Source of the DNA: Alitta virens
Taxonomy: Eukaryota; Annelida; Polychaeta; Phyllodocida; Nereididae
Assembly: GCA_932294295.1 (NCBI GenBank)
Contig: OW028585.1
Span: 12,472,271 to 12,536,270, forward strand
Length of the DNA: 64,000 nucleotides
Reading direction: 5' to 3'
Of this stretch, positions 38,601 through 64,000 are shown piece after piece; the first letter of the stretch is position 1; the number at the start of each line of letters is the position of its first letter. Under the pieces are notes generated by a model, which saw only the letters and a list, made by a program, of their open reading frames with translations, did not search any database and had not been told where the DNA came from. The position numbers were made by a program, and so were the translations under genes.

Positions 38601-41600
38601 AAATATCTGGAGTGTATAATAAACAAATGATAAATACATCCTTTTTTTCTTGCATTAAGTATATATATATATATATATGGATATTATCTGTTTTCTGATT
38701 GGACCACCAACCTGCAACAATAGCCATTGTTTATTGTTTATCTTCCTTTGTTTATACTTTAAGCTGGTAAACAAATAGGATTTAATGTCAAATTGTACTT
38801 CAAACAATTTATACCACACAGGAAACTTGGTATTAACAGAGATTAACATTTAGCATGGCTTTGCTGCATTTTACATGCTAATAAGGAAAAATTTTTAATT
38901 TTGTTAATCTTAAAAGCATGAGTTACATTTTGTAAATAAAATTTCACAAAAATTAGATATCAGAACTGAATATATGCAAATTCCTTAAGTCTTATCAAAA
39001 ATAGAAATTAAAAGAACTAAGGCTTAATTAGACTACTCTACAAATACAAATTTATACAAAGAAACCTGACAATTAAGACAACCTCAATATTAAAACCACC
39101 TCAATATAAAGACAACCTCACTATTAAGACCACCTCGCTATCAAGACCACCTCACTCTATGAAGACCACCGCACTATCAAGATCACCACACTATCAAGAT
39201 CACCACACTATCAAGACCACCTCACTATCAAGACCACCTCACTATCAAGACCACCTCAATATTAAGACCTCCTCACCATTAAGACCACCTCACTATTAAG
39301 ACCACCTCAATATTAAGACACCCCAATATTTCAGACCACCTCGGCTTTAATTAAGACCACCTCATGATAATCAATATAAAGCCCACTTGAATTTCTAAAT
39401 TGTGAAATTCTTTCAAAATTAAAAGACAATATCATTATTCAGACTACTTCGGTGATTCCCTAGGGTGGCCGTAATTGTGGGGTGATTCCCAAGGGTGGTC
39501 TTAATGGTGGGGTGATTCCCAAGGGTGGGTCCTTATTGTGGGGTGATTCCCAAGGCTGGTCTTTATTGTGGGGTTATTCCCAAGGCTGGGCTTAATGGTG
39601 GGGTGATTCCCATGGGTGGCCATAATTGTGGGGTGATTCCCGAGGCTGGTATTTATTGTGGGGTTACTTTAAATATTGTTACAATTAATGTATTGGCAAA
39701 AAAAATGTACTTTTACAGGATATGTAGAATGTATTAGAATGTAATATACATATGTAAGTACCGCAGAGTACAACTAGCCTATCCTGCAGACAAGTCAACA
39801 AGTGCAAAAGATGTAGGATAATTCATGAATAGTATTGAAAACTAAAAAGTAGGTTATAAATGGTATTGATAGATATTGAAATCACACAAATCAACCAGTT
39901 TTTTGTAATTAATATTTAACTTTTTTTTAGATTATACAAACATGATAAAATAAGACCTTTTTTTAGGGTGATCTTAGACTCTTAGCATTTGATGACAAGA
40001 ACTAAATTATACAAATACTGGATGGCAATGTGTCCAATATAGCTTCTCTGAATCCAATAAAACTCTATATTGGACGGCTTTCTATCCACCCTTCAAATGT
40101 TATATTCTCTAAAGACATGTCACAGATTATTAGAAAGTCTGAGTTTCTACAAATCCATTCATTTAAGTAGTAATCAAATAAAAAATGAGACAGTTTCTAA
40201 CTTTGCCTGTCCAATATAACTCTTCAATCCAATATATAGTAACATTTTCTGTCCAATATATCTTTTTCCATCCAATATAACTTTTCCAATCAAATATTAA
40301 GAAAATCTAGAATTAAGATCTTCTCAAAATAATGACAATTAAAGACCCTATCCCAATAATTATCATCATAAATTATGATGATATGATATATTATGATTAT
40401 AGCTACTTCACTTGGTCGAGAAACGTATATATCATAATGTCAAAGATTCAGAATTAAATTACCATTAATTAAAAAATGGAATAATGTGATTTTAATATTA
40501 TTTTTTTAAATGGAATAGCAATATTATTTTTCAACGGAATAATGTGGTATTAATATTATTCTATTATATGGAAGCAAAAATGCCAGTCTAAATAACTCTA
40601 CCCTCCTCCCCCCAAATACCCCGAAAAAAACGTCCACTAATATGTCACCCCGTCCCTTATAAGGCAACACACGCCACAATGGGGGGTTCCAATGATGACT
40701 TTTGACCCCCTAATTTGAGGGCAAGAGCCTTTACCCCAAAAATGTCAACGTCCCTAACACTTTAACAATACACGACTGACTTACATTAAGACTTATATTG
40801 GGACTTAAGGACTTAAATGATAAGAGCCCACACAAAGATCGTAGGTAATCCTATTAAAAAGCTAAGAAAGAGATCTCAAATTGTTGAAGAAATTAGAAAG
40901 TGACGGCTAATTGATGTTTATGTGTTTGGGTTAGAGTTTAGAGGATGTTTAAACACTAAAAGTGGTTTAAATGGGCTTTAATGGAAAATGTTTCCTGGTG
41001 AAATCACTGGTCCAGTATTATGGTGACTGGTACTATTTTGAGTGCAATATATTGATGAAATAGTTTAATTATAGCTCATCAAACAAGATTTGATCATAAA
41101 TGGAAATAACTGGTTCAGTAAAGTGTGTCATGTATTAAATAACTGCAACATTGAATATGATATTAGTAACCTCAGAAACTTTGACATTGATAATATCTCT
41201 AACACAGTGAAACTAAGACTCTATGAAGCCGAACATGAGCGACTTATAAATGCAATAAATGACAGTTCACAACAACCAAAACTTAGGACATATAAACTAT
41301 TTAAAACTGATTGTAGAATAGAACCTTATCTTGAATTGCAACAAATTCGCAAAGTGTTAACTAAAATAGCTAGATTTAGGACAAGTTCACATAGCCTGAA
41401 GATTGAAACAGGTCGACACCATAAACCAATAATTCCTGCTCCAAATAGAATATGTGAAAAGTGTACGTTAAACTTTGTAGAAGACGAAATTCACTGTTTG
41501 ATTGTCTGTCCTGGTAATGAGCAACACCGTGTTAACCTTTTTTTTGAATGCAACTAAATTTATTAACAACTTCTTGTCTCTAGATGATATAACTAAGTTT

Positions 41601-48359: not shown

Positions 48360-49445
48360 AGATACACGTGTCAGTTAAAACATCAAGGACAAAAAGTATG
48401 TACAATAGAAAAGGGTAAAGAAAAGTAAAGAAAGCAATGAAAGAATGATACAATATGAAGTTATAATATATACTCAATGAATATTTTTCACAATGTACAA
48501 TTTTTAATTAATAAGAGCGCCTAATATTCACCATAATATAAAATAATACTGATGGTTAAACATCTACATAGTCTCCAAAAAATATTGTAATGTCTCTCCA
48601 CATAAATTCACAATAAACTGATTAAACCGTGCGATAATTTCAATGATCATCTCATATAATATATACAAATGTACAATATAAATGGAAAAAAATAAAACAC
48701 AAGAAGCAGCACCAGTCACCGTACATTAATTACAAGCACAAGGCATAGCACCAACCACAAAAGCCACTACAACACAAACATATATATATATATACAGACA
48801 TGCACACACAAGCAGTGACATTCAGGGGGCCACCCATCGCCCAGGACCAGAGGTCATGGTCTCTTTATGTAAATTGGGAGAAAACAAAGTCATTCCTTTA
48901 TTTTCGGGGAAATTTAGAAATTGGCCTAGTGCAAAATTTACTGCTAGGGATATACTGCTCAGTAATTCCTGGCATTGGCTTTCTACACTCATAACTGTGA
49001 AAGTGTTTGTTTGTTCAAATGCTACCTCGATAAGGGGCAATCTTGTTTCTTTCCATTTAGGGCAGATCATTGGACAGTGTAATTCATCTTCTACTAGTTG
49101 CAGGTTACGTTTATTACAGATACGTTTTTCAGCGGGGACATCAGGACGTTTATGCCTACCTAATTCTATATTCAAGTTATGGGAGCTAAGCCTGAATCTG
49201 GCAATGTTACAATAAAGTGATTTTGGTAAACCTAGATTTAGGTAAGGTTCTATACGCATGTCTTTTTTAAATGTTTTATAAGTTCTTAGTTTGGGGTATT
49301 TATGCGTGTCATTGATTTCAGCAAAAAGGTAAATCTGGGCACATATATGACCTAGGTATTTCTGTCTTAACCAACAAGTAACCAAAGGAAATGTCCTGTG
49401 CACCACACAATTTATGTAATACTGTAGAATAAAAAAGAAAGACAA
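48360..49445 (-). mobile_element. 3' end of a non-LTR retrotransposon, second copy
   Basis: The open frame from 49445 to 48822 encodes the same tail as the copy at 41.1 kb: KYPKLRTYKTFKKDMRIEPY, ARFRLSSHNLNIELGRHKRP, VEDELHCPMICP and a C-terminal piece matching the other copy. Here the frame is intact through the tail, but the second Cys of the Cys-x2-Cys pair is Arg (ICNKR against ICEKC). Only the C-terminal tail remains, so it cannot encode a polymerase. Sequence down to about 48360 may be its 3' UTR. It lies between the two genes. Confidence 0.78.
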
Positions 49446-50313
49446 ATGTGTATAACAATATGTGACGAGTTTATTTTGAAAACATGTACATATTCATTTA
49501 TTGACATGAGGTTATTTTAAAACATTTTTAATTAGTATATTAAATGGTTAAAAAATAAAGACACCTATATAAATAAATAAATAAATAAAGTATTGCAATA
49601 AAGTGTGCACCATTAAAATTAACCCAATATTTAATTTTTAAATCTTGTTGGACCAAGCTTCAACATTTTTTTCTTGTTGTCACAAATACATTGGAACATC
49701 ACATTTTAGACCACTCTTGGGAATCACTGAAGTGGTCTTAATATCGGGGCAGTCAAAGAAAAATTCCTATCTACAGGGGACTTATCAAAACAAACAAAAC
49801 TTCTTTTTTAACGCCGAACACAAATATTAACAGTAGGCGTCACAAAAGATTTTTGAGCTCTCCTGATTACAAATAAGTGTATATAATGACAAAATCTGAC
49901 AACAAAAGTCACTTAATTTTAATATTCAACAAACATGGTGGTGCTTCCTACAGTCACAGCACCCCACCAGCACCCGGCATCCTGCACAGATAGAAAACTA
50001 TGTAAATTATTGAATGCCCATTCAAAAAGTGACTCCATCAATTTCTTTGTCTTAAAGAATTTCTTTCAATGACACGTGGACTTCATCAAATACAATTTTC
50101 AATACTTCAAAGCAAATTTACATATTTAAAAAATATTTTAAAATGTATTGATTTCATATTTACAATGGACAGTTGGCATAATAATACTTCACACAAGTCA
50201 TTTTTTTCTTTTTCTTGAAAAAGTCAATATGATCCCATAATCGCCATAGAAAAACAGGGATTTCATTTACAAACTTCACAAAATCATGAACATTGTACAA
50301 GAACACATTCACT

Positions 50314-53456: not shown

Positions 53457-53713
53457 TCACAAGCACTTCTTGCACATGGCCGTTTGTCCTTCGATAAAGT
53501 CACGACAAGGGCAAAGTCTCGCTAAGTCTGGGTGTTCTCCGACACAAGAAAATAACATCGGATGTTGCTGTAGTATGCATTGACTGGAGTCGGGTCTAAA
53601 TGCTGGGAAATAAATGTCCTCCACTCGTTTCAGACTGTTACAAGTACCAATGTTCTTCTCCAACGTTTCTTGCGAGTTTAAACGAGTAAAATGTGACGGT
53701 TCGCAGATCATGC
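53457..53713 (-). CDS. MGAT5: MGAT5 terminal coding exon with stop codon
   Basis: 257 nt: GC + 84 codons + TGA at 53459-53457. It encodes MICEPSHFTRLNSQETLEKN through LFSCVGEHPDLARLCPCRDF and IEGQTAMCKKCL, the Cys-rich C-terminus that ends the known enzymes. The acceptor is TTTCAG|GC. The 3' UTR is not resolved. One AATAAA on this strand at 52727-52732, about 725 bp after the stop, is a weak candidate poly(A) signal. Confidence 0.95.
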
Positions 53714-56637
53714 CTGAAATAAATAATAGGCAAAATATCAACATTATTGTTATATTGTGCAAACTACACCTACTAGACGTGAATTTGAGAAAACGGAGAA
53801 TTAGAGCTATCAATTTTTCCAACTAATCATAAAAAAAGTGGCAAGGAGACCAATAATATAGCTTTTCTGAATCCAATAAAACTCTACATTGGACAAACTT
53901 CCATCCACTATTTGTTATATTCTAGTTAGGGCTGTTCCATTAAAAAAAAGGAAGGTGGACAGGATAATTTTCAGACCCCTCCACCCTCCTTTTGGTTTTT
54001 TGACAGACCCACCCACCCCCTTTTTTTCTTTTTTGGAGAACACCCCCCCCCCCCCCTTTTTAAAAAACCTTCCTGTCAACCCCCCCCCCCCCTTCCCCTT
54101 TTTTTTAAAAAAAGGAGCAGCCCTGACAAATTCCTCTGATAGGCTCTGTTCACACCTCAGTCATTTTGTCTATGTCTATGCAACAATTGTGACATTACAT
54201 TGTCCATTGTGAGAATGACAACTTTTTCTTTCCGATATAAGTTTTTCTGTACAAAAAGTCACATGGTATGAATGACATGACAACTTTCTCTTTCTGATAT
54301 AAGTTTTTCTATACAAATAATTATTTTAAAATCCAATATAACAAACTATTGAACAGTCACATGGTATTAATGAAGAGATATGACTGGACAAGGACATTTC
54401 ATTTGAAAAAATGTCAGAACTAAGTTGAAATAGCAATTCCACTTACTGCTAAACATACATGCCTCCTTGCATGACTGACCCTGACGGCCGACGATGAAAG
54501 TGACCGCGTCTTCTGGTGGCCACAAGGGGGCGTCCCGGGTGCAGAAATCCTGGTGGCGAATGTAGGCACTAAGACGCTGCAACATGCCCTCTTCCGTAAA
54601 TTCGTAAGGTTGATAGGACTGCACCTGCAATTGTGAAAATTTAACAAATATACAACTAAACTCGACGCATTTGATTTTCTTTTAAATTCTAACTTGACAC
54701 AATCAGAACTGTGTCACCAGCAGTTATGTTCTATTGTGACATCACCAACATCAAAAAGCCCCCTAAACATGCTTAATGGATTAGATAGGTGCGCCACCAG
54801 TCTGAACAGTGAACGAACTGTAATTAAAACTTCGAAATATTTTATTGACAAAGTGAGTCATAAAATGAATAAGCCATTGATTGCATGGTATATCTAGATA
54901 GACAATTTCTAATTTGTTTCGAGTCATTTCACTTACTTTTCCTTCCTGGTGTTCTCTAAGGGCATGTTCAATCGCCTGTTTCACTTGATCAGGCTGATTT
55001 ATATCGACTGTGTATACGTGTGGCTCTTTGATAAAATCTTCGACATACGGGTGTTGACTAGTTAGCTGGAAGAGAGCAATAACAAAAATAAATCTTTCAG
55101 TTTATGATACTCTTTGGTTTGCTATCAATGTGGAGGAAAAGTACCACCAGGGGTCACTGACTACGTAGATGATATGTAATGTTTATGCCTTGATGCTTAT
55201 ATGACCAACTGTCAGAGGCAGACGTAATGATGATATGATAAGGCTGCTTGGAGTCCACACCATGTTACACATTTACACCATGGTTGGGGGTCTTCTACTT
55301 GTCTCAGCATAGACACTGGGTACAAGGCACCTCCAATTTAAAATCTCATGCGATCGACCTACAGCTGGGATATAGCTCATGATGATGTCATCTATGTCAT
55401 GTCACATGTCATCTTCTATGTAACAATTATTTGGTGACATCATCCTATTGTCTTTTATCTGCAATGTTGACAAGTGACCTCTAGTAGCTTTTCTCCGAAT
55501 TATGGAAATCAAGGAATTACATAAAATAGAATGTGCCCGACTCTACCAACATGACATACATTATCAATAATTCCAACTGGATTCATAAACTTCCAGTCTA
55601 ATAATCAGTAATAGCATGTGTCATAGAGGAAGATGTAATGATGCAATGACGGTACAAGTAGCACATTCAACATGATGTGTGTGTGATTAGGGCTTTACGT
55701 CCTGTATTTCTGCACCTGCAGGGCTAATTAGGACAGGCAGAGACTATGGCAATGAGACAAAGGAGGAAACAGCCATCTAACTTAGGCTCAACCGGGAATC
55801 GAACCCAGGACCCAGCTTTTGGAGGCCCAGAGCGCTACCTCTGAGCTAGGCCCCTGCCCTGGGATAATTAGGACAGGCAAAGACTATGGCAATGAGACGA
55901 AGGAGGAAACAGCCATCTAACTTAGGCTCAACCGGGAATCGAACCCAGGACCCAGCTTTTGGAGGCCCAGAGCGCTACCTCTGAGCTAGGCCCCTGCCCT
56001 GGGATAATTAGGACAGGCAAAGACTATGGCAATGAGACGAAGGAGGAAACAGCCATCCAATTTGGCTCGACCGGGAATCGAATCCGGGACCCAGCGGTTG
56101 GAAACCCAGAGCGCTACCTTTGAGCTAGGCCCCCGCCCTATATTCAACATGATCAATGAATGAATGTTTTGACTGGTTGAGAGAACAGGGATTAACCAAT
56201 GAAACTGCTGCATCTATAGGCATTCACAATTTCATGTTGGATATGATATTTGGGCCGCGATGACAAGGCTGGGAGTCGACCCTGTTAACCATTTACCCCA
56301 TGGGTGGGGTATTTTACTTGCCACTAGCATAGACACTGCATGTTGGGACCTTTAGAGGAGACGGTCAATGACTTACTTGACCAGTATGTCGTGTTTTATA
56401 CTGACCTTTCTGACTGTAGGTTTCCCCTTAAAAAATTTTGTATTTTCCGAGTTATGCGGTGGATTGAACTTGGGGTTGATGAACACGTTGCCATGGGCGA
56501 TGGCTTCCAATGGGGCGGGGCCTTCGTAAGGGAAACCCAAACCAATAAAAATCTGCAAGAAAAATAGAACGTATTAGTGACTTTACAACCTGTATGTACA
56601 TGTATTAAGGTCCATATTTAATACAATGTAGCAATTC

Positions 56638-56669
<32 letters not shown>

Positions 56670-59600
56670 TAGATATATAAATAGATAGATTATACATAGA
56701 CAGATAGATAGTAAGATAGACAGATAGGTAGACAGACAGATAGACAGATAGCTAGAACTAATAACAGCAGTTAAACAAACCAAACTAACCAAACAAATTA
56801 GCAAATATGTCTAGTGGAGTATAAATTAGCTATGTCCCTCATGATCGGGAGTTAACTAACATTTTCGTTGGTTATATCAATTATTGTCGATGCTCAAAAT
56901 GCCTACTCCAATGAATATTCACATGAATACCGTAATATTTCAGATTCTTTATCACACGGAAAAAAGCAAAATTTTACTGGTTACAAACCTTAGATTGTCT
57001 CAGAAGTTTGTGCAATTCCAAGCCGCTGAGGATGCCGTGGTTTTTTACAAAAGATGGGATAGCAGTCTTCTTATCTCCCGGGAAGACCGTTCCGTGAATT
57101 TCAACGTAATTGTTGATAATACTTAAGTACTTCTCCTTTCCCTGTTTAATAGAAAGAAATAATGTGGTTATGAAGTTGGGTCAAGTTTAATATTAACTTA
57201 AATAGTGCCAATGGTGTAGTAACATTGCAGTGATTCGGTTTATTATTATAAAAATATATTGTGATTTTGACCATATTTTTTTAGTTCTGGTGCAGTTAGT
57301 GCAACATTTGTGTAGTTTAGTGGGGGAAAAAATAATAATGAAGAAGTAGTAATTTTTTTTTCTTTGGTTTTGTATTGATGGTATGGTTTAGATTATTTGT
57401 GTTGTTTGCACATGGTTTTTAACACATTGATGCATTTAATCAATCTTCAGACATGCACATTAACATAACCCGCAGCGACGCATGCTGCAAAGGATCCAGA
57501 GGACCTAAAGAAACAAACGAGAGGCCAACAACTCCCAAGTTACACCCTAACAACTTCTACAAGTTCTACAAGTTTGTGACGTCATCAGTTGCATCCAAGC
57601 ATATGACGGGTTTATACTGGACTTGAATCCAGAAATTTACTTCAAATGGGAAGGAAAATGATCACCAGAGTTCAGTGCCACCGAAGCAGATAACAACTGT
57701 TTGATGACGTCATCAATTCAGTGATGTCAATTTTGTGTATATTAAGCGATGACATCATCTGTGATTGACCCGCTTCGGTGGCAGTGCCCTCTGATGGTGT
57801 TTCTCTCCATTGCATTGTTAAAATTTGTTATAGTTCTTCATTAGCCCAAAAAAAAAAACCCCAAAGTTTTGATATTTCTTTCTTTGACCCTCTAAAAAGT
57901 TTCTTGTCACCAAAAACTAATTTATTTTTCAAGGTTGTTGGTCTTCAGTTTTCATAATAACATCATTCATATTCGTTAATGTTGTATTACCAGAATGTCA
58001 AACTCGAATGTACGAAAGGTCTTCCATATATGGAGCATCAACTGCTTGGAATCTACTGCCAGAGATTTTTAAAAACTGTGATAGTATTGAGAGCTTCACA
58101 ACTGGAGCAAAGTTGTACTTTCCATGATTTTATGTCACTGTTTATTTTAATCCTTGTTTTTAATGTAAATATTTTTCATAAACATCATATTTTCCATTCA
58201 ACAAACCATCTTTCTTTAAATCATGTCTTCACACTCACCTGCCACATGTATTCCGCCTTCCCATAAACGACAGCGATATTTTTTCGCTCGATCCCAGCGA
58301 TCATGGAATCATTAATGTGATTTTCGACCACAAACCCCATGAAAGAATTGTCTGGCGAATGAGCTGGAAAATGAAAGTATAAACAGATTGGTGGTAGTAA
58401 TCATGAAAGCTTTTTCAGGTCTTTTTAAACTGTAAATGTAGATTATAAATTAGCGTTTCCAGAATTATAATAGACCCAAAAAATTGATACATTTCACTAA
58501 TTTTAATAATCTCCAACAATAATCTACCTTATCTTTCAGTTATGTCATCAATTACAGTAGAATTCGAATGAATATTTTCAGTAATACTGCTACATAATGC
58601 AATAGCACAAAAAAACCACTTCTGTGGGATAGATAGACAGATAGATAGGTAGATAGGTAGATAGATAGATAGATAGATAGATAGAATAGATAGAATAGAT
58701 AGAGAGATGGATAGATGATAGATAGAAAGATAGACAGATAGATAGATAGATAGATAGATAGATATGGAAAGTGCAGCCCTCTAAGGCAAGTTCTTGCCAC
58801 TAGCAATAGTTGACTGATGACATGGAAGAGGAAGTAATATTTCTCTAAATTTTTAGCTTTTTTATCATAAATATGACTGAAAAACAAATGAATATCAATT
58901 ATGGATTCTAATATACTTACGAAACATAGTGAAGAACTGTTGCGGATGCAGGTTTTGCATCCCCCATTGCGTTTTTAGTTTGTGCGACTTTGCATATGGC
59001 TCCCAGTTGAATGCTGGTTCAGTGCCAAACGAATCGATGATTCGTAATAGGCAACTACAATAAGAGAATATCACATTCAGTAAAATTACTTTACTAAATT
59101 TCTTTATCAAACTAAAATTTTAAAATGATAGTACATTTACAATTCTTTTAGGTCATGAGAATTTTTTGAAACATTCCAAATTGACTTAATTAATATTCAA
59201 AATTTTGATTTTGAAACCAAGACACAAAAGCTTTATTTTCTGAACATTAAGGTCACCGATAAGAAATTAAGCGAAAATATTTTGGTGGAAATTGTACGTA
59301 AAAACTTATGAACATTCCAAACGATGTGACAATGAACAAAATCGCACTCCTACTAGAGACACCTGGTGACTAAAACTAAATATATTTACATCCTGCATTA
59401 AATAAAAATTACCATAATGACAGCGAGTTGTATTAGTACTATTAATTACTCCTTACTATCTTATTACCTACTTTCTAGGTAGTTTAGTGAAAAATGTACA
59501 TTTGACTGAACTTCTATACTGCCTAATAAGTAAGTTTATATATTATATAAATCCTTGTTACTTTGTGTTACCATTGGTTACCCTATAAACACATATTAAA

Positions 59601-62600
59601 TACCATATATGGTATATGCACAAATTTATAATTTTTAGCATTTTGTTTTGTATCAGAATGTAGCCGTTTTCTTGCTACTACTAGCCACATGATCATAACA
59701 CACGGATTATCTACCCAAGGGGTTTTTGTACCTGTGTATTAGTCTCATTTCAGTATATAATATATTATATAACTATCGGCTAAACCAGGTACAAAAACCC
59801 CGTGTTATGAACTACATCACATACCCATGTACGCACAAAAATAATCATTTTAATGGTCATTGCATTGGCTGCTGAGCATGTGCGCTGTCTCAAGCAAGCT
59901 GTGCTTGGTAAGCTCGAGTTTAAAATATGATAAAGTTTTAAATTGCAACATGGCAATAAGAACATAAGTATATTATATTATCATTTAGGTGCGAAAGCTC
60001 ATGCTTAGTGAAAATTTTCTAAAGCTGATATTCTCAAGTTAAATGAATAGATATTATAGCAGAAAATATGGCAAAGTTTCTAAATGTGGATGGCCTTTAT
60101 TATGTGCAACTGGGTGGGTGGGTGGATTAGGGTTTTATGTTTTGTATTTCTGCGCCTGATGGGCTAATTAGGACAGATAGGGACCATGGCAATGAGATGA
60201 TGGACGAAACAGCCATCCAACATAGGCTCGACCGGGAATTGAATCCGGGACCCAGTGGTTGGAAGCCCAGCGCTTCCACTAAGCTAGGCCCCCACTGTGC
60301 AACTAACTGGAACTGATTTCCGAATCGAGCAAGTCTTAAATATGTCTCAAGTAATTACGCAAAGTACACAATTAAAAAAAAAAATAGCAGTACCTGAATT
60401 TTCCGTAACCATTTTTTACTTTTCTTTTGAATTGGGACAAGCCCACAATGTCTGTGTATATCATATCGATGGGTAATTTATCTCGGCTCTGACATTGTGC
60501 TTCGGCGCTTGGCAATTTTGTTAGAATTCTGTAAAATGCAAGGAAATAATACTGGAGTTTTGAGCAATGATTAACCACAAATAAAAACTTCATTTACAGG
60601 CCGAAACCAAACTGGCCCCCTTGTGGTACACCGAAAACCTACAAAACAAACTTTGAAAGTAGGGTCAGCATATATTTGTTGCTATGGCGAAGGTTCTAAG
60701 AAACAGCAACTGGTCATGTGAACAAGAGAGATGTTTAAATAGGATCTTGAGTAAAAAAAAAAATTACCCATCAGTAATACTTTTATGTTTTGGGGGGAAA
60801 TACAGAAAAACTGCAGTTGGGAATCTAATCCGAATTTCGTAACATTATGTTACACCTCCGAGTAGAATTAATCTTAGGCATAAACTGCATATTATTAATC
60901 CGCTCCCAGCTTTAATGTATCCTATGAAATGAGTAAAATGTGAGCAATTAGTGCAAATGCATACTCAGCTAGAAGCCCCATTCAAATGGAAGTGTACAAT
61001 AACAATACAATTTGATAAATTTATGAAGTGTCTTAAATATAAATCGGTTGCGGGTAGCTTGACTATATGGGTCAAATCGTTTCTATATAAGGTAACTTTT
61101 GTTTTCGAACCTTTTTTGGTAATTATGCTCCACCCTTTTTAATTGCAATTAAATATCGCCACATATGCAACAGAATTTACCGCGAGTCATAACTAATCAT
61201 CGTACCATATATAGACTTGTTAATTTTTATCACAATGTGTCTCACCAACCGATATATCTTGAGACTCTCAAATCTTTTCCGTAATATTGATTAAGTTATC
61301 AATAAAGGCAAATGATAAAATGTGGTGTTTTCTTCAGTATGTGACGAGCAATAATATCCAGCTCGAAAAAAGCGTTAGCAATCCAAAAATCACATTACAG
61401 TGATTTCAACATAGCATTAAATGACAAGGCATTTAGAATAAGGCTTCAAGCTGTATATATACTGTGATTACAATCAGTACTTAGAATACCATATTAATTA
61501 TAGATTGCTATGTTATAGTATTCTAAAGTACTATACATTGAACAGGGTTTGCGTAACGAATCTTCAGAAAGTATTCCAGAGTTAACATTTTACTAAAACA
61601 AGGAGTTCATATTGAAAACTAATTCACTGAAATTTGACCAGAATTTTGAGATTTCTCTGACTAAACTATTAATCTTTGGTCTTTCCAATAAATTCCAATT
61701 AAGTTTGATGACATATCATTAAAATTCATTATTCAAACAATTTCCAAGGTTACAGACATTAAGCAAACCCCTTAGAACAAATTCAGTGCCCGCCGACTCC
61801 ATTGAATGTTGCACAAACCTATACTGTTTATAAATATCTTTAAAACGTCGTTTGAACTGACGAAAGCCAATCAGATCAGTGAAAATCAGGTCACCCAATG
61901 TCGCGACCCCACTTGCACATCCGCTTGGCTGGTGTTTCCTCACGAATAGAAGTCTGCGAACTAAGCTAAAATTTAAAGAGAAATTAAGACGGAAAGAAAA
62001 CACCAAAAATCAAGACCATCAGTTGAAGCAGCACTGAAGTTGTCGTAATATTTAGGTGGGCTTAGTTCTGGAAGTTTTTTTTTGGGAATTATAATCACAG
62101 ATTTGGAACCATGCAAAATGTACGTACACCTAACTGACAGAGTGTCATTACCACCTAAAATTTTAAAGAAAGTCTGCAACAAATCTATTTAATTATGACT
62201 TAGTAATAAATAAATGAAATTAACATGTATAAACACACAAATATTACAATCAGGGCCAGATTGAGCAGACGGTGGGTTGCTGGGCTTTAAAAAAAAAAAT
62301 TAAAAAAACAGATTTTCTTCTTTTTCTGAATTCCGGTGTAGGCCATTCCTCATCCTCATTTCCAGGGCTGCTTTGGTCGACCCAATCCGGCCCAGATTAC
62401 AATGCCGAAAATATAGTCCTGCATTCAACACGTTTTTGCACAAATTACTCCTACACCCCCCCCCCCCCCCCATGTCACTATTACACTTCACTGCATAGAA
62501 TGCATCAGTACTTACGCCTGTAGTTGTTCCACTTCACTGGTTATCGTCAAATCGTGTCCGAGGATATATAAGGCAGAAATGATATCGCTCCACTGAACCA

Positions 62601-62618
62601 GTTCACCCAGAGGACCTC
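53457..62618 (-). CDS. MGAT5: MGAT5-like N-acetylglucosaminyltransferase V, C-terminal part (gene model, 5' end outside window)
   Basis: This is a GT18-family alpha-1,6-mannosylglycoprotein 6-beta-N-acetylglucosaminyltransferase. Known enzymes of the family transfer GlcNAc from UDP-GlcNAc in beta-1,6 linkage to the alpha-1,6 mannose arm of N-glycans in the Golgi, giving tri- and tetra-antennary chains. Translating the exons below in order gives about 452-456 residues of an enzyme that is usually about 740. Landmarks that match the vertebrate protein in the same order are LGELVQWSDIISALYILGHD, IYTDIVGL.QFK, LRIIDSFGTEP, FFTMFPHSPDNSFMGFVVE, YVEIHGTVF, VKNHGILSG, GLGFPYEGPAPLEAIAHG, NPKFNPP, LTSQHPY and CPCRDFIEGQ. 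The N-terminal membrane anchor, the stem and the first part of the catalytic domain must lie beyond 64000. Every intron is GT-AG and every phase closes. MGAT5 and MGAT5B cannot be told apart here. The family assignment rests on recalled motifs, not on a search. Confidence 0.95.
53926..54126. mobile_element. MITE with AGGGCTGTTCCATTT termini (copy 2)
   Basis: TTAGGGCTGTTCCATTAAAA at the left mirrors TTTAAAAAAAGGAGCAGCCC / TGA at the right. The interior is polyA/polyC-rich with two long C runs. It is inserted about 210 bp upstream of the last MGAT5 exon, in the intron, beside a diverged repeat (GAATCCAATAAAACTCTACA / TTGGAC) also present at 40030-40075. Confidence 0.7.
54447..54624 (-). CDS. 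MGAT5: MGAT5 exon
   Basis: 178 nt: 59 codons + A. It encodes VQSYQPYEFTEEGMLQRLSA, YIRHQDFCTRDAPLWPPEDA and VTFIVGRQGQSCKEACMFS. The acceptor is TTGCAG and the donor AGCA|GTAAGT. The Cys residues begin the disulphide-rich C-terminal region (QDFC, SCKEAC). A + GC of the next exon gives Ser. Confidence 0.95.
54937..55065 (-). CDS. MGAT5: MGAT5 exon
   Basis: 129 nt, 43 whole codons, phase 0 at both ends. It encodes LTSQHPYVEDFIKEPHVYTV then DINQPDQVKQAIEHALREHQ and EGK. The acceptor is TTCCAG and the donor AAA|GTAAGT. LTSQHPY and PHV.TVD match the vertebrate enzyme. Confidence 0.95.
55195..55390 (-). mobile_element. tRNA-derived SINE, family 2, partial
   Basis: TATATGACCAACTGTCAGAG, GATATGATAAGGCTGCTTGG, AGTCCACACCATGTTACACA, GCATAGACACTGGGTACAAG and CAGCTGGGATATAGCTCATG. 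It lies in an MGAT5 intron. Confidence 0.66.
55682..56141 (-). mobile_element. tRNA-derived SINE, family 1, partly triplicated head
   Basis: One full copy (55682-55860) is followed by two further 140-bp units, each starting GGGATAATTAGGACAGGCAA (55861 and 56001) and each containing the tRNA-like head. Units one and two share the derived CAGCTTTTGGAGGCCC. The third keeps the ancestral CAGCGGTTGGAAACCC. The element sits in an MGAT5 intron. Confidence 0.85.
56406..56552 (-). CDS. MGAT5: MGAT5 exon carrying the GLGFPYEGPAPLEAIA motif
   Basis: 147 nt, 49 whole codons, phase 0 at both ends. It encodes IFIGLGFPYEGPAPLEAIAH through NPKFNPPHNSENTKFFKGKP and TVRK. The acceptor is CTTGCAG and the donor AAG|GTCAGT. 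This is the best conserved segment, corresponding in GT-B glycosyltransferases to part of the nucleotide-sugar binding half. Confidence 0.96.
56638..56755. repeat. (GATA)/(GACA)n microsatellite
   Basis: It lies about 85 bp upstream, in the gene's direction, of the MGAT5 exon at 56552. Confidence 0.9.
56989..57141 (-). CDS. MGAT5: MGAT5 exon
   Basis: 153 nt, 51 whole codons, phase 0 at both ends. It encodes GKEKYLSIINNYVEIHGTVF through VKNHGILSGLELHKLLRQSK. The acceptor is AAACAG and the donor AAG|GTTTGT. VKNHGILSG is a recognised MGAT5 motif. Confidence 0.95.
57985..58130 (+). mobile_element. Short remnant of a non-LTR reverse transcriptase C-terminus
   Basis: The plus frame across 57990-58125 reads CQTRMYERSSIYGASTAWNL then LPEIFKNCDSIESFTTGAKL and YF before a stop. 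The pattern of A..WN.LP..I.......F....K..LF is the usual C-terminal tail of CR1/L2-like reverse transcriptases. It sits in an MGAT5 intron, antisense to the gene, about 110 bp from the exon at 58239. Confidence 0.55.
57990..58030. other. MGAT5 intron 57142-58238
   Basis: The intron around this point holds the reverse-transcriptase remnant described separately and otherwise AT-rich sequence. A pair of GATGACGTCATCAATTCAG-like direct and inverted segments lies at 57700-57780, of unknown meaning. Confidence 0.3.
58239..58363 (-). CDS. MGAT5: MGAT5 exon
   Basis: 125 nt: CT + 41 codons, ending in phase 0. It encodes HSPDNSFMGFVVENHINDSM through AVVYGKAEYMWQ. The acceptor is TTCCAG and the donor CAG|GTGAGT. 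SPDNSF.GFVVE is a strong family motif. Confidence 0.95.
58627..58825. repeat. (GATA)n microsatellite running into SINE family 2 tail
   Basis: GATA tetramers followed directly by TATGGAAAGTGCAGCCCTCT / AAGGCAAGTTCTTGCCACTA, with no further SINE body after about 58825. Confidence 0.9.
58921..59054 (-). CDS. MGAT5: MGAT5 exon
   Basis: 134 nt: T + 44 codons + C. It encodes CLLRIIDSFGTEPAFNWEPY through GMQNLHPQQFFTMF. The acceptor is TTGTAG and the donor C|GTAAGT. The split codon C+CT gives the Pro of FTMFP. Confidence 0.95.
59719..59801. repeat. Inverted repeat, 16-bp perfect arms
   Basis: GGGGTTTTTGTACCTG at 59719 is mirrored by CAGGTACAAAAACCCC at 59786. The flanks TCATAACACACGG and CCGTGTTATGA extend the symmetry imperfectly, so it is a small MITE-like element in an MGAT5 intron. 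Confidence 0.6.
60107..60295 (-). mobile_element. tRNA-derived SINE, family 1
   Basis: The body GGATTAGGGTTTTATGTTTT through the tRNA-like head AGCCCAGCGCTTCCACTAAG on the plus strand. It is located in the MGAT5 intron between the 59054 exon and exon A. Confidence 0.82.
60394..60528 (-). CDS. MGAT5: MGAT5 alternative exon A
   Basis: 135 nt with the same phases as exon B (1 nt in, 2 nt out). It encodes ILTKLPSAEAQCQSRDKLPI then DMIYTDIVGLSQFKRKVKNG and YGKF. The acceptor is TTACAG|A and the donor AG|GTACTG. Its core IYTDIVGL.QFK is closer to the vertebrate enzyme than exon B is. The leftover AG joins T of the next exon to give Ser. It lies 1290 bp downstream of exon B. Confidence 0.9.
60600..61810. 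other. Intron between alternative exons B and A of MGAT5
   Basis: 1290 bp in all (60529-61818), AT-rich, without SINEs or tandem arrays. This contrasts with nearly every other intron of the window. No obvious complementary pairing elements could be found by eye. Confidence 0.5.
61819..61965 (-). CDS. MGAT5: MGAT5 alternative exon B
   Basis: 147 nt, phase 1 nt in and 2 nt out: C + 48 codons + AG. It encodes LVRRLLFVRKHQPSGCASGV followed by ATLGDLIFTDLIGFRQFKRR and FKDIYKQY. The acceptor is TTTTAG|C and the donor AG|GTTTGT. The core DLIFTDLIGFRQFKRR aligns with DMIYTDIVGLSQFKRK of exon A, so the two are duplicated versions of one exon. The SGC motif resembles the vertebrate protein at this place. 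No stop or frameshift is visible, and the length is a multiple of three. Confidence 0.85.
62516..62618 (-). CDS. MGAT5: MGAT5 exon (first in window)
   Basis: 103 nt: two bases finish a split codon, then come 33 codons (GPLGELVQWSDIISALYILG and HDLTITSEVEQLQ), then GC is left over. The acceptor reads CTAG|GA and the donor GC|GTAAGT. The leftover GC joins either the C of exon B or the A of exon A, giving Ala in both cases. A 17-bp minisatellite begins only about 40 bp upstream of the acceptor. Confidence 0.93.
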
Positions 62619-62654: not shown

Positions 62655-64000
62655 ATCGTGAAGTGGTCTTAATATTAATAGTCAGGTGAATTTTAATAGC
62701 TATGACAGATCTGGCGCAAAAATTTAGGAGGGGGGGTCTTACTAGTAAGGTGGTCTTAATAGAGAGGTGGTCTTAATAGTGAGGTGGTCTTACTAGTGAG
62801 GCGGTCTTAATAGAGAGGTGGTCTTAATAGTGAGGTGGTCTTACTTGTGAAGTGGTCTTAATAGAGAGGTGGTCTTAATTGTGAGGTGGTCTTAATAGAG
62901 AGGTGGTCTTATTAGAGAGGTGGTCTTACTAGTGAGGTGGTCTTAATAGAGAGGTGGTCTTAATAGTGAGGTGGTCTTACTAGTGAAGTGGTCTTAATAG
63001 AGAGGTGGTCTTAATAGTGAGGTGGTCTTACTAGTGAGGTGGTCTTAATAGTGAAGTGGTCTTAATAGTGAGGTGGTCTTACTAGTGAGGTGGTCTTAAT
63101 AGTGAGGTGGTCTTAATAGTGAGGTGGTCTTAATAGTGAGGTGGTCTTAATAGTAAGGTGGTCTTACTAGTGGGGTGGTCTTAATAGTGAGGTGGTCTTA
63201 CTAGTGAGGTGGTCTTAATAGTGAGGTGGTCTTAATAGTGAGGTGGTCTTAATAGTGAGGTGGTCTTAATAGTAAGGTGGTCTTACTAGTGGGGTGGTCT
63301 TAATAGTGAGGTGCCACCGTGGTCTTACTAGTAAGGTGGTCTTAATAGAGAGGTGGTCTTACTAGTGAGGTGGTCTTACTAGTGAGGTGGTCTTAATAGT
63401 GAAGTGGTCTTAATAGTGAGGTGGTCTTAATAGTGAGGTGCCACCGTGGTCTTACTAGTAAGGTGGTCTTAATAGAGAGGTGGTCTTAATAGTGAGGTGG
63501 TCTTACTAGTGAGGTGGTCTTAATAGTGAAGTGGTCTTAATAGTGAGGTGGTCTTACTAGTGAGGTGGTCTTAATAGTGAAGTGGTCTTAATAGTGAGGT
63601 GGTCTTAATAGTGAGGTGGTCTTAATAGTAAGGTGGTCTTACTAGTGGGGTGGTCTTAATAGTGACGTGGTCTTAATAGTGAGGTGCCACCGTGGTCTTA
63701 CTAGTAAGGTGGTCTTAATAGAGAGGTGGTCTTAATAGTGAGGTGGTCTTAATAGTGAAGTGGTCTTAATAGTATGGTGGTTTTACTAGTGGGCTGGTCT
63801 TAATAGTGACGTGGTCTTAATAGTGAGGTGCCACCGTGGTCTTACTAGTAAGGTGGTCTTAATAGAGAGGTGGTCTTAATAGTGAGGTGGTCTTACTAGT
63901 GAGGTGGTCTTAATAGTGAAGTGGTCTTAATAGTGAGGTGGTCTTAATAGTGAGGTGGTCTTAATAGTGACGTGGTCTTAATAGTGAGGTGCCACCGTGG
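62655..64000 (-). repeat. 17-bp minisatellite, largest array (runs off window)
   Basis: About 1.3 kb of GGTCTTAATAGTGAGGT and close variants (TTACTAGTGAGGT, TTAATAGAGAGGT, TTAATAGTGAAGT). Five copies of an inserted 8-mer, within GTGCCACCGTGG, occur at 63311, 63438, 63684, 63828 and 63989. The array lies in the MGAT5 intron directly upstream of the exon at 62618. In the gene's sense direction it reads as TTAAGACCACCTCACTA-type. Confidence 0.93.

Follow-up and report, generated by a model that had tools for sequence, protein, structure and literature searches.

Does a single MGAT5 gene of the polychaete Alitta virens encode several enzymes through the alternative use of duplicated exons? The window analysed, a stretch of 64,000 nt of chromosome 13 (C13:12472271-12536270), carries on its minus strand an MGAT5 gene of family GT18. 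When the B form is used as the query, its best matches are annelid and mollusc MGAT5 proteins (among the 120 listed of 1000). Joining exon E to either exon A or exon B, and then to exon D, gives an uninterrupted MGAT5 frame that ends at a stop codon at 53457-53459. Both forms match the Pfam family PF15024 (GT18) over profile positions 122-557 of 557, with 640 bits for the A form and 628 bits for the B form. The exons upstream of E run beyond the window, to about position 78764 in continued numbering. In the alignment to the human enzyme, the counterpart of E297 is in exon E and those of D378, F380, and W401 are in exon D; beta-1,6-GlcNAc transfer is the predicted activity of the product.

Table 1. 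Exons of the Alitta MGAT5 gene from the upstream duplicated pair to the stop codon (window numbering, continued beyond the window for X1 and X2)
Feature	Position	Strand	Basis
Exon X1, outside the window	67458-67524 continued numbering (L006:3458-3524)	-	upstream duplicated pair
Exon X2, outside the window	66071-66137 continued numbering (L006:2071-2137)	-	upstream duplicated pair
Exon E, constitutive, single copy; starts GPLGE, its E corresponding to human E297	62516..62618	-	splice sites, frame
Exon B, divergent alternative copy, 147 nt	61819..61965	-	profile E 4.1e-8, simulation, residue retention
Exon A, family-typical copy, 135 nt	60394..60528	-	profile E 1.6e-25
Exon D, constitutive; region of human D378, F380, P400, W401	58921..59054	-	alignment, frame
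Exon F, MGAT5 coding	58239..58363	-	frame
Exon G, MGAT5 coding	56989..57141	-	frame
Exon H, MGAT5 coding; region of human I552/K554	56406..56552	-	frame
Exon I, MGAT5 coding	54937..55065	-	frame
Exon J, MGAT5 coding	54447..54624	-	frame
Exon K, final coding exon, carries the stop codon	53457..53713	-	frame

The original prediction described A and B as related exons of matching phase, and in this it was right throughout. Their coordinates and lengths are as claimed, both enter with 1 nt and leave AG, both begin with an Ala codon at the upstream join (GCC or GCA), both have AG/GT splice sites and zero in-frame stops, and either joins directly to E (at 62516) and D (at 59054) with a frame that continues to the stop. 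Human GnT-V contains a single stretch to which both of them align, as had been supposed for the vertebrate enzyme. On sequence grounds, A and B are confirmed as intact, phase-matched copies of one MGAT5 exon. B comes before A in transcript order; A has the form of the segment that is typical of lophotrochozoans, and B is divergent. A profile of 69 distinct family segments (only those of length 38-52, with P0003, P0031, and P0109 left out), scanned over the 2903 open frames of the window, gives E values of 1.6e-25 for A, 4.1e-8 for B, and 0.24 for the next match. The B segment searched against the whole genome (671.1 Mb in 23 contigs) retrieves itself (6.7e-27), A weakly (0.46), and nothing more. 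WebScipio recognizes candidate exclusive exons by like length (at most 20 aa of difference), same phase and splice-site type, lack of stops, and a score of at least 0.15 (PMC3228551); A and B have 44 and 48 residues, the same phase, and a relative BLOSUM62 score of 0.24, and fall within these limits. According to published work, 1,399 of 6,541 human candidate exclusive exons were verified, and many similar adjacent exons are not exclusive.

In the intron upstream of E, a 17-bp unit, GGTCTTAATAGTGAGGT, is repeated about 72 times as a minisatellite (62735-63991) that reaches the end of the window. Within the intron between A and D, nested inverted repeats at 59693-59810 (19 nt at 95%, 23 nt at 78%) look MITE-like by eye, and the stretch 60131-60316 has the look of a tRNA-derived SINE, in which ARAGORN finds no tRNA. 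A 140-bp unit repeated three times in tandem at 55721-56139 resembles this SINE-like stretch. Farther away, the open frames 41075-41557 (plus strand) and 48822-49493 (minus strand) have in common, by eye, a stretch 'RIEPYL...GRH', and neither matches a Pfam family at E 0.001.

A second duplicated pair lies directly upstream of E, beyond the window, and was found by searching relatives against the upstream DNA. The X1 segment, VVVHLGLLTKASGWKFAEGAFK, and the X2 segment, IVIYIGSLSKASHFDLVEGAQK, are both 67 nt long with AG and GT sites and have the same phase; with 22 and 22 residues and a score of 0.45, they also fall within the WebScipio limits. The frame is kept with a single copy, and early stops follow when both copies or neither are included. 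Hence, only one of them is usable at a time if the frame is to be kept, and X1 and X2 are very probably exclusive. The presence of this frame-locked pair in the same gene makes the case for A and B stronger, and these, too, are probably used one at a time. The exclusivity of A and B is nevertheless a part of the original prediction that stands with reserve: the copies are intact and have the length, phase, and similarity of exclusive exons, but joins from B to A are in frame and a nemertean gene model has the segment in tandem (see following). As had been pointed out, inclusion or skipping of both keeps the frame, which thus does not enforce the choice. A profile scan of 94 kb in tiles of 32 residues (59 rows, P0001-P0062 minus P0003, P0009, and P0109) gives X2 and B as the only second copies at E < 0.01, adjacent exons aside, and the remaining second matches are weaker, with E of 0.012 and above; the 5′-most exons score poorly in it, so that a copy there could be missed. 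Judged by sequence, each pair is a tandem duplication whose two copies are homologous, intact, and matched in phase, and no further duplicated exon appears in the scan.

One may ask whether B, and perhaps X2, is simply the relic of an old exon duplication that is no longer spliced. Such a relic would agree with the protein searches, which found no B-like segment: among nearly full-length proteins there were three candidates and zero matches, and among short proteins zero candidates, by a method that needs shared 5-residue words. It would agree as well with the differences between A and B by codon position (27/20/27 of 44 each), which have no third-position excess (p 0.46). Those between X1 and X2 (9/5/19 of 22) do have one (p 5e-5). 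A decayed exon copy exists, moreover, in a GT18 paralogue of the same genome, at C13:10.15 Mb (L009:3168-3260); it is truncated, lacks the AG acceptor, and is near-identical in part to L009:3484-3580. B and X2, unlike this copy, have neither fault. Neutral simulations were made for the divergence from A to B (74/132 nt) and from X1 to X2 (33/66 nt), with 3000 copies each at three indel rates, and in all six runs 0/3000 copies kept the frame, the splice dinucleotides, and the observed profile score. The best simulated copies reached 3.6 bits versus 32.5 for B, and 10.9 versus 14.5 for X2, whose score is slightly helped because P0001 and P0053 are among the 36 distinct loops of its profile. Neutral decay of B and X2 is rejected by the simulation. 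Residue retention was assessed with 67 (B) and 35 (X2) distinct family segments, five proteins being dropped. What B and X2 retain is by preference what the family conserves: in B, 14/44 residues are identical (p 0.0025) and 24/44 identical or similar (p 0.0005), and in X2, 9/22 are identical (p 0.03) and 13/22 identical or similar (p 0.005). An unspliced relic is hence quite improbable, the least likely of the alternatives considered here.

The genome contains two more divergent GT18-like genes, at C13 around 10.148-10.161 Mb (L008, L009) and C7 around 27.510-27.513 Mb (L010), which keep the C and D-L-I at the position of A/B and carry a Y where the human enzyme has I353. An origin of B from these genes is rejected, as their segments at C13:10.15 Mb and C7:27.5 Mb have relative scores of 17 and 7 against B, versus 27 for A. 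The best family scores of B are with the annelid proteins P0002 and P0001, and Alitta A comes only 11th of 70; because of this rank and the small score differences, the duplication that gave rise to B cannot be dated.

Of the 120 relatives listed out of 1000, the closest is the annelid protein P0001, whose identity to Alitta reaches 93.7% over E and D and 86% over A. With a loop nearer to X2 (score 52) than to X1 (28), it joins an X2-like loop to an A-type segment within a near-complete GT18 domain. The source of P0001 is a contig of 1,959 nt that codes for 576 residues, and hence presumably an intron-free transcript. Loops could be read in 116 of the 120 listed proteins, of which P0001 and P0053 are nearer to X2 and the Owenia protein P0013 ties; P0053 was discounted as support for X2, its sequence being divergent (best tail identity 56%). 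The Mizuhopecten protein P0020 has three extra residues close to the end of its A-type segment (KFRSHGCLL), possibly from a shifted splice site. In the snail Babylonia, P0010 and P0031 are 76% identical overall, 97.5% in the flanking exons, and 39.5% in the A/B segment; they look like paralogues, not isoforms. In the AF2 model of P0031, a strand and a helix are preserved in this segment (mean pLDDT 80 for the model), and that of the nemertean Lineus protein P0109 has a mean pLDDT of 75, both being weak support since they were built on 32-33 sequences. Duplication of the A/B exon may have recurred elsewhere among the lophotrochozoans (nemertean, snail). Comparison gives no support for B being orthologous to either the Lineus or the Babylonia alternative copy.

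P0109, named isoform X2, has the A/B segment twice in tandem, and this bears on the way B is used. If X1 and X2 were truly exclusive and B a cassette sometimes added before A, a longer enzyme with the segment twice would result, and in Alitta the length of each exon is divisible by three and the B-A joins are in frame. In the Lineus model, however, the first copy is ordered and the second is unstructured (residues 378-427 under pLDDT 50). P0109 is also the only protein with two copies among the 120 listed relatives and may be a gene-prediction artefact. We thus regard a cassette role for B as unlikely and retain the choice of B or A, one at a time, as the preferred reading.

The structural report on human GnT-V gives E297 as the catalytic base, D378, F380, and W401 as acceptor contacts, and 283, 284, 353, 354, 400, and 552 as the acceptor-site positions that differ between GnT-V and GnT-IX (PMC6107550). 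Positions 283, 284, 353, and 354 fall in the duplicated exons, and 400 (D) and 552 (H) in single-copy ones. In the alignment, X corresponds to the mobile loop that precedes human E297 and contains the acceptor-choice residues 283-288, and A/B to human residues ~327-370, i.e., the flexible loop K330-R344 followed by the strand with I353-V354. Human C338, in the loop K330-R344, bonds to C172 (PMC6107550), and it is retained in both A and B. Positions 283-285 and 288 read W-K-F and G in X1, F-D-L and G in X2, and L-G-I and D in P0001; position 284 is thus Asp in X2 versus Lys in X1. Positions 353-354 read I-V in A and L-I in B. Neither X2 nor B carries the GnT-IX residues. The outer part of the acceptor site is thus encoded by the duplicated exons, and the catalytic base together with the core contacts by the single ones. 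This suggests that, with its docking-site exons duplicated, one gene may produce enzyme versions with different docking sites.

Mutants of the human enzymes indicate what such differences might do. Itoh et al. exchanged residues 283-285, 288, and V341 between human GnT-V and GnT-IX (PMC12860957). V341 may be V354 in a construct numbered 13 residues shorter, and both positions lie within the A/B segment. In that study, the 283-285 swap abolished activity, F283D, too, abolished or strongly reduced it, T288R increased O-mannose activity fourfold, and mutants other than 283-285 did not markedly alter N-glycan activity or branch choice, for which reason the authors hold a change at these residues to be insufficient by itself to switch preference (PMC12860957). 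Replacement of the loop K330-R344 in human GnT-V left full activity (PMC6107550), and so the A/B loop is less likely to have a large effect. From work on the human enzyme we infer that exon choice may alter acceptor specificity in the worm. The same mutants lend themselves to another explanation, in which the alternative exons give an inactive or regulatory form, or a lower enzyme dose, and not a new acceptor range. The losses with the 283-285 swap and F283D, the Asp of X2 at 284, and the early stop upon inclusion of both X1 and X2 would all fit. Yet conserved residues survive in X2 and B to a greater extent than neutral change predicts, more than a mere poison exon needs, and P0001 has its X2-like loop in a GT18 domain that is nearly complete. 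This explanation seems improbable, marginally more so than the cassette.

The reading that we favor, with a probability of about 0.45, is that one MGAT5 gene gives several enzyme forms, each combining X1 or X2 with B or A, and with the acceptor site varied. Exclusivity of X1 and X2 would follow from the frame and from the loss of wrong transcripts, whereas regulated splicing, and not the frame, would select either B or A. All sites are GT-AG, which excludes a minor-spliceosome mismatch, and the introns between B and A (1290 nt) and between X1 and X2 (1320 nt) exclude exclusivity through too short an intron. A search for RNA docking sites in six intron pairs gave best ungapped pairings that are not unusual: of the 40 Markov-shuffled controls for each pair, between 7 and 38 did as well. 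Since frame, splice-site type, and intron length cannot enforce the choice of A or B and there is no pairing signal, regulated splicing factors would be the likely means of keeping the two exclusive. The forms would share the catalytic core (E297, D378, F380, and W401) and differ in the loop 283-288 and in the segment ~327-370, and splice choice would change which acceptor glycan or glycoprotein gets branched. That the two pairs together change the acceptor range is a more tentative proposition. Equally tentative is the idea of two independent annelid splice switches, flanking the constitutive exon of the catalytic base; as many as four enzymes of differing acceptor range would then arise by splicing, where vertebrates use two genes, MGAT5 and MGAT5B. 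Should this hold, splicing could redirect N-glycan branching, besides enzyme dose or separate genes, and nature would provide swaps of the debated GnT-V/GnT-IX acceptor determinants on a constant core, allowing clean tests. One candidate exclusive pair being frame-locked and the adjacent one not, the gene would also be useful for studies of exclusivity.

Some elements of this arrangement are already known, from exclusive duplicated glycosyltransferase exons (AaCHS1) and splice-changed substrate choice (PGANT9). Among the papers listed from the literature searched, which includes few subscription papers, there was no two-cluster arrangement around a GT18 acceptor site and nothing relevant on MGAT5 with mutually exclusive exons; one of these papers names MGAT5 only as up-regulated in tumours. 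In Aedes, CHS1 exons 6a and 6b are mutually exclusive duplicates of 177 nt each, with splicing demonstrated by qPCR (PMC2561029). The Alitta gene resembles CHS1 in having duplicated exons of equal length in a glycosyltransferase gene, as candidates for exclusive use, whereas CHS1 has a single cluster and its swapped 59-aa segment holds a transmembrane helix, unlike that of Alitta MGAT5. Drosophila pgant9 includes exon 8A or 8B (PGANT9A/PGANT9B), and the charge of the loop shifts the measured substrate preference (PMC6115407). Here the likeness is that of one glycosyltransferase gene with alternative exons for a segment close to the active site. However, pgant9 codes for a GalNAc-transferase with one cluster in the lectin domain, and the Alitta gene for a GT18 enzyme with two clusters in the catalytic domain; the change of preference was measured in pgant9, while that of Alitta is suggested by residue differences at acceptor-site positions alone. 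A further parallel is the vertebrate pair MGAT5 and MGAT5B, which differ at positions of X and A/B (283-288, 353-354), GnT-V and GnT-IX preferring N-glycan or O-mannose glycan acceptors (PMC6107550, PMC12860957). This pair also differs at 400 and 552, which are in single-copy exons in Alitta, and X2 and B are without the GnT-IX residues. In vertebrates GnT-V and GnT-IX are separate genes, not splice forms, whereas in Alitta the corresponding variation would come from the alternative exons of a single gene.
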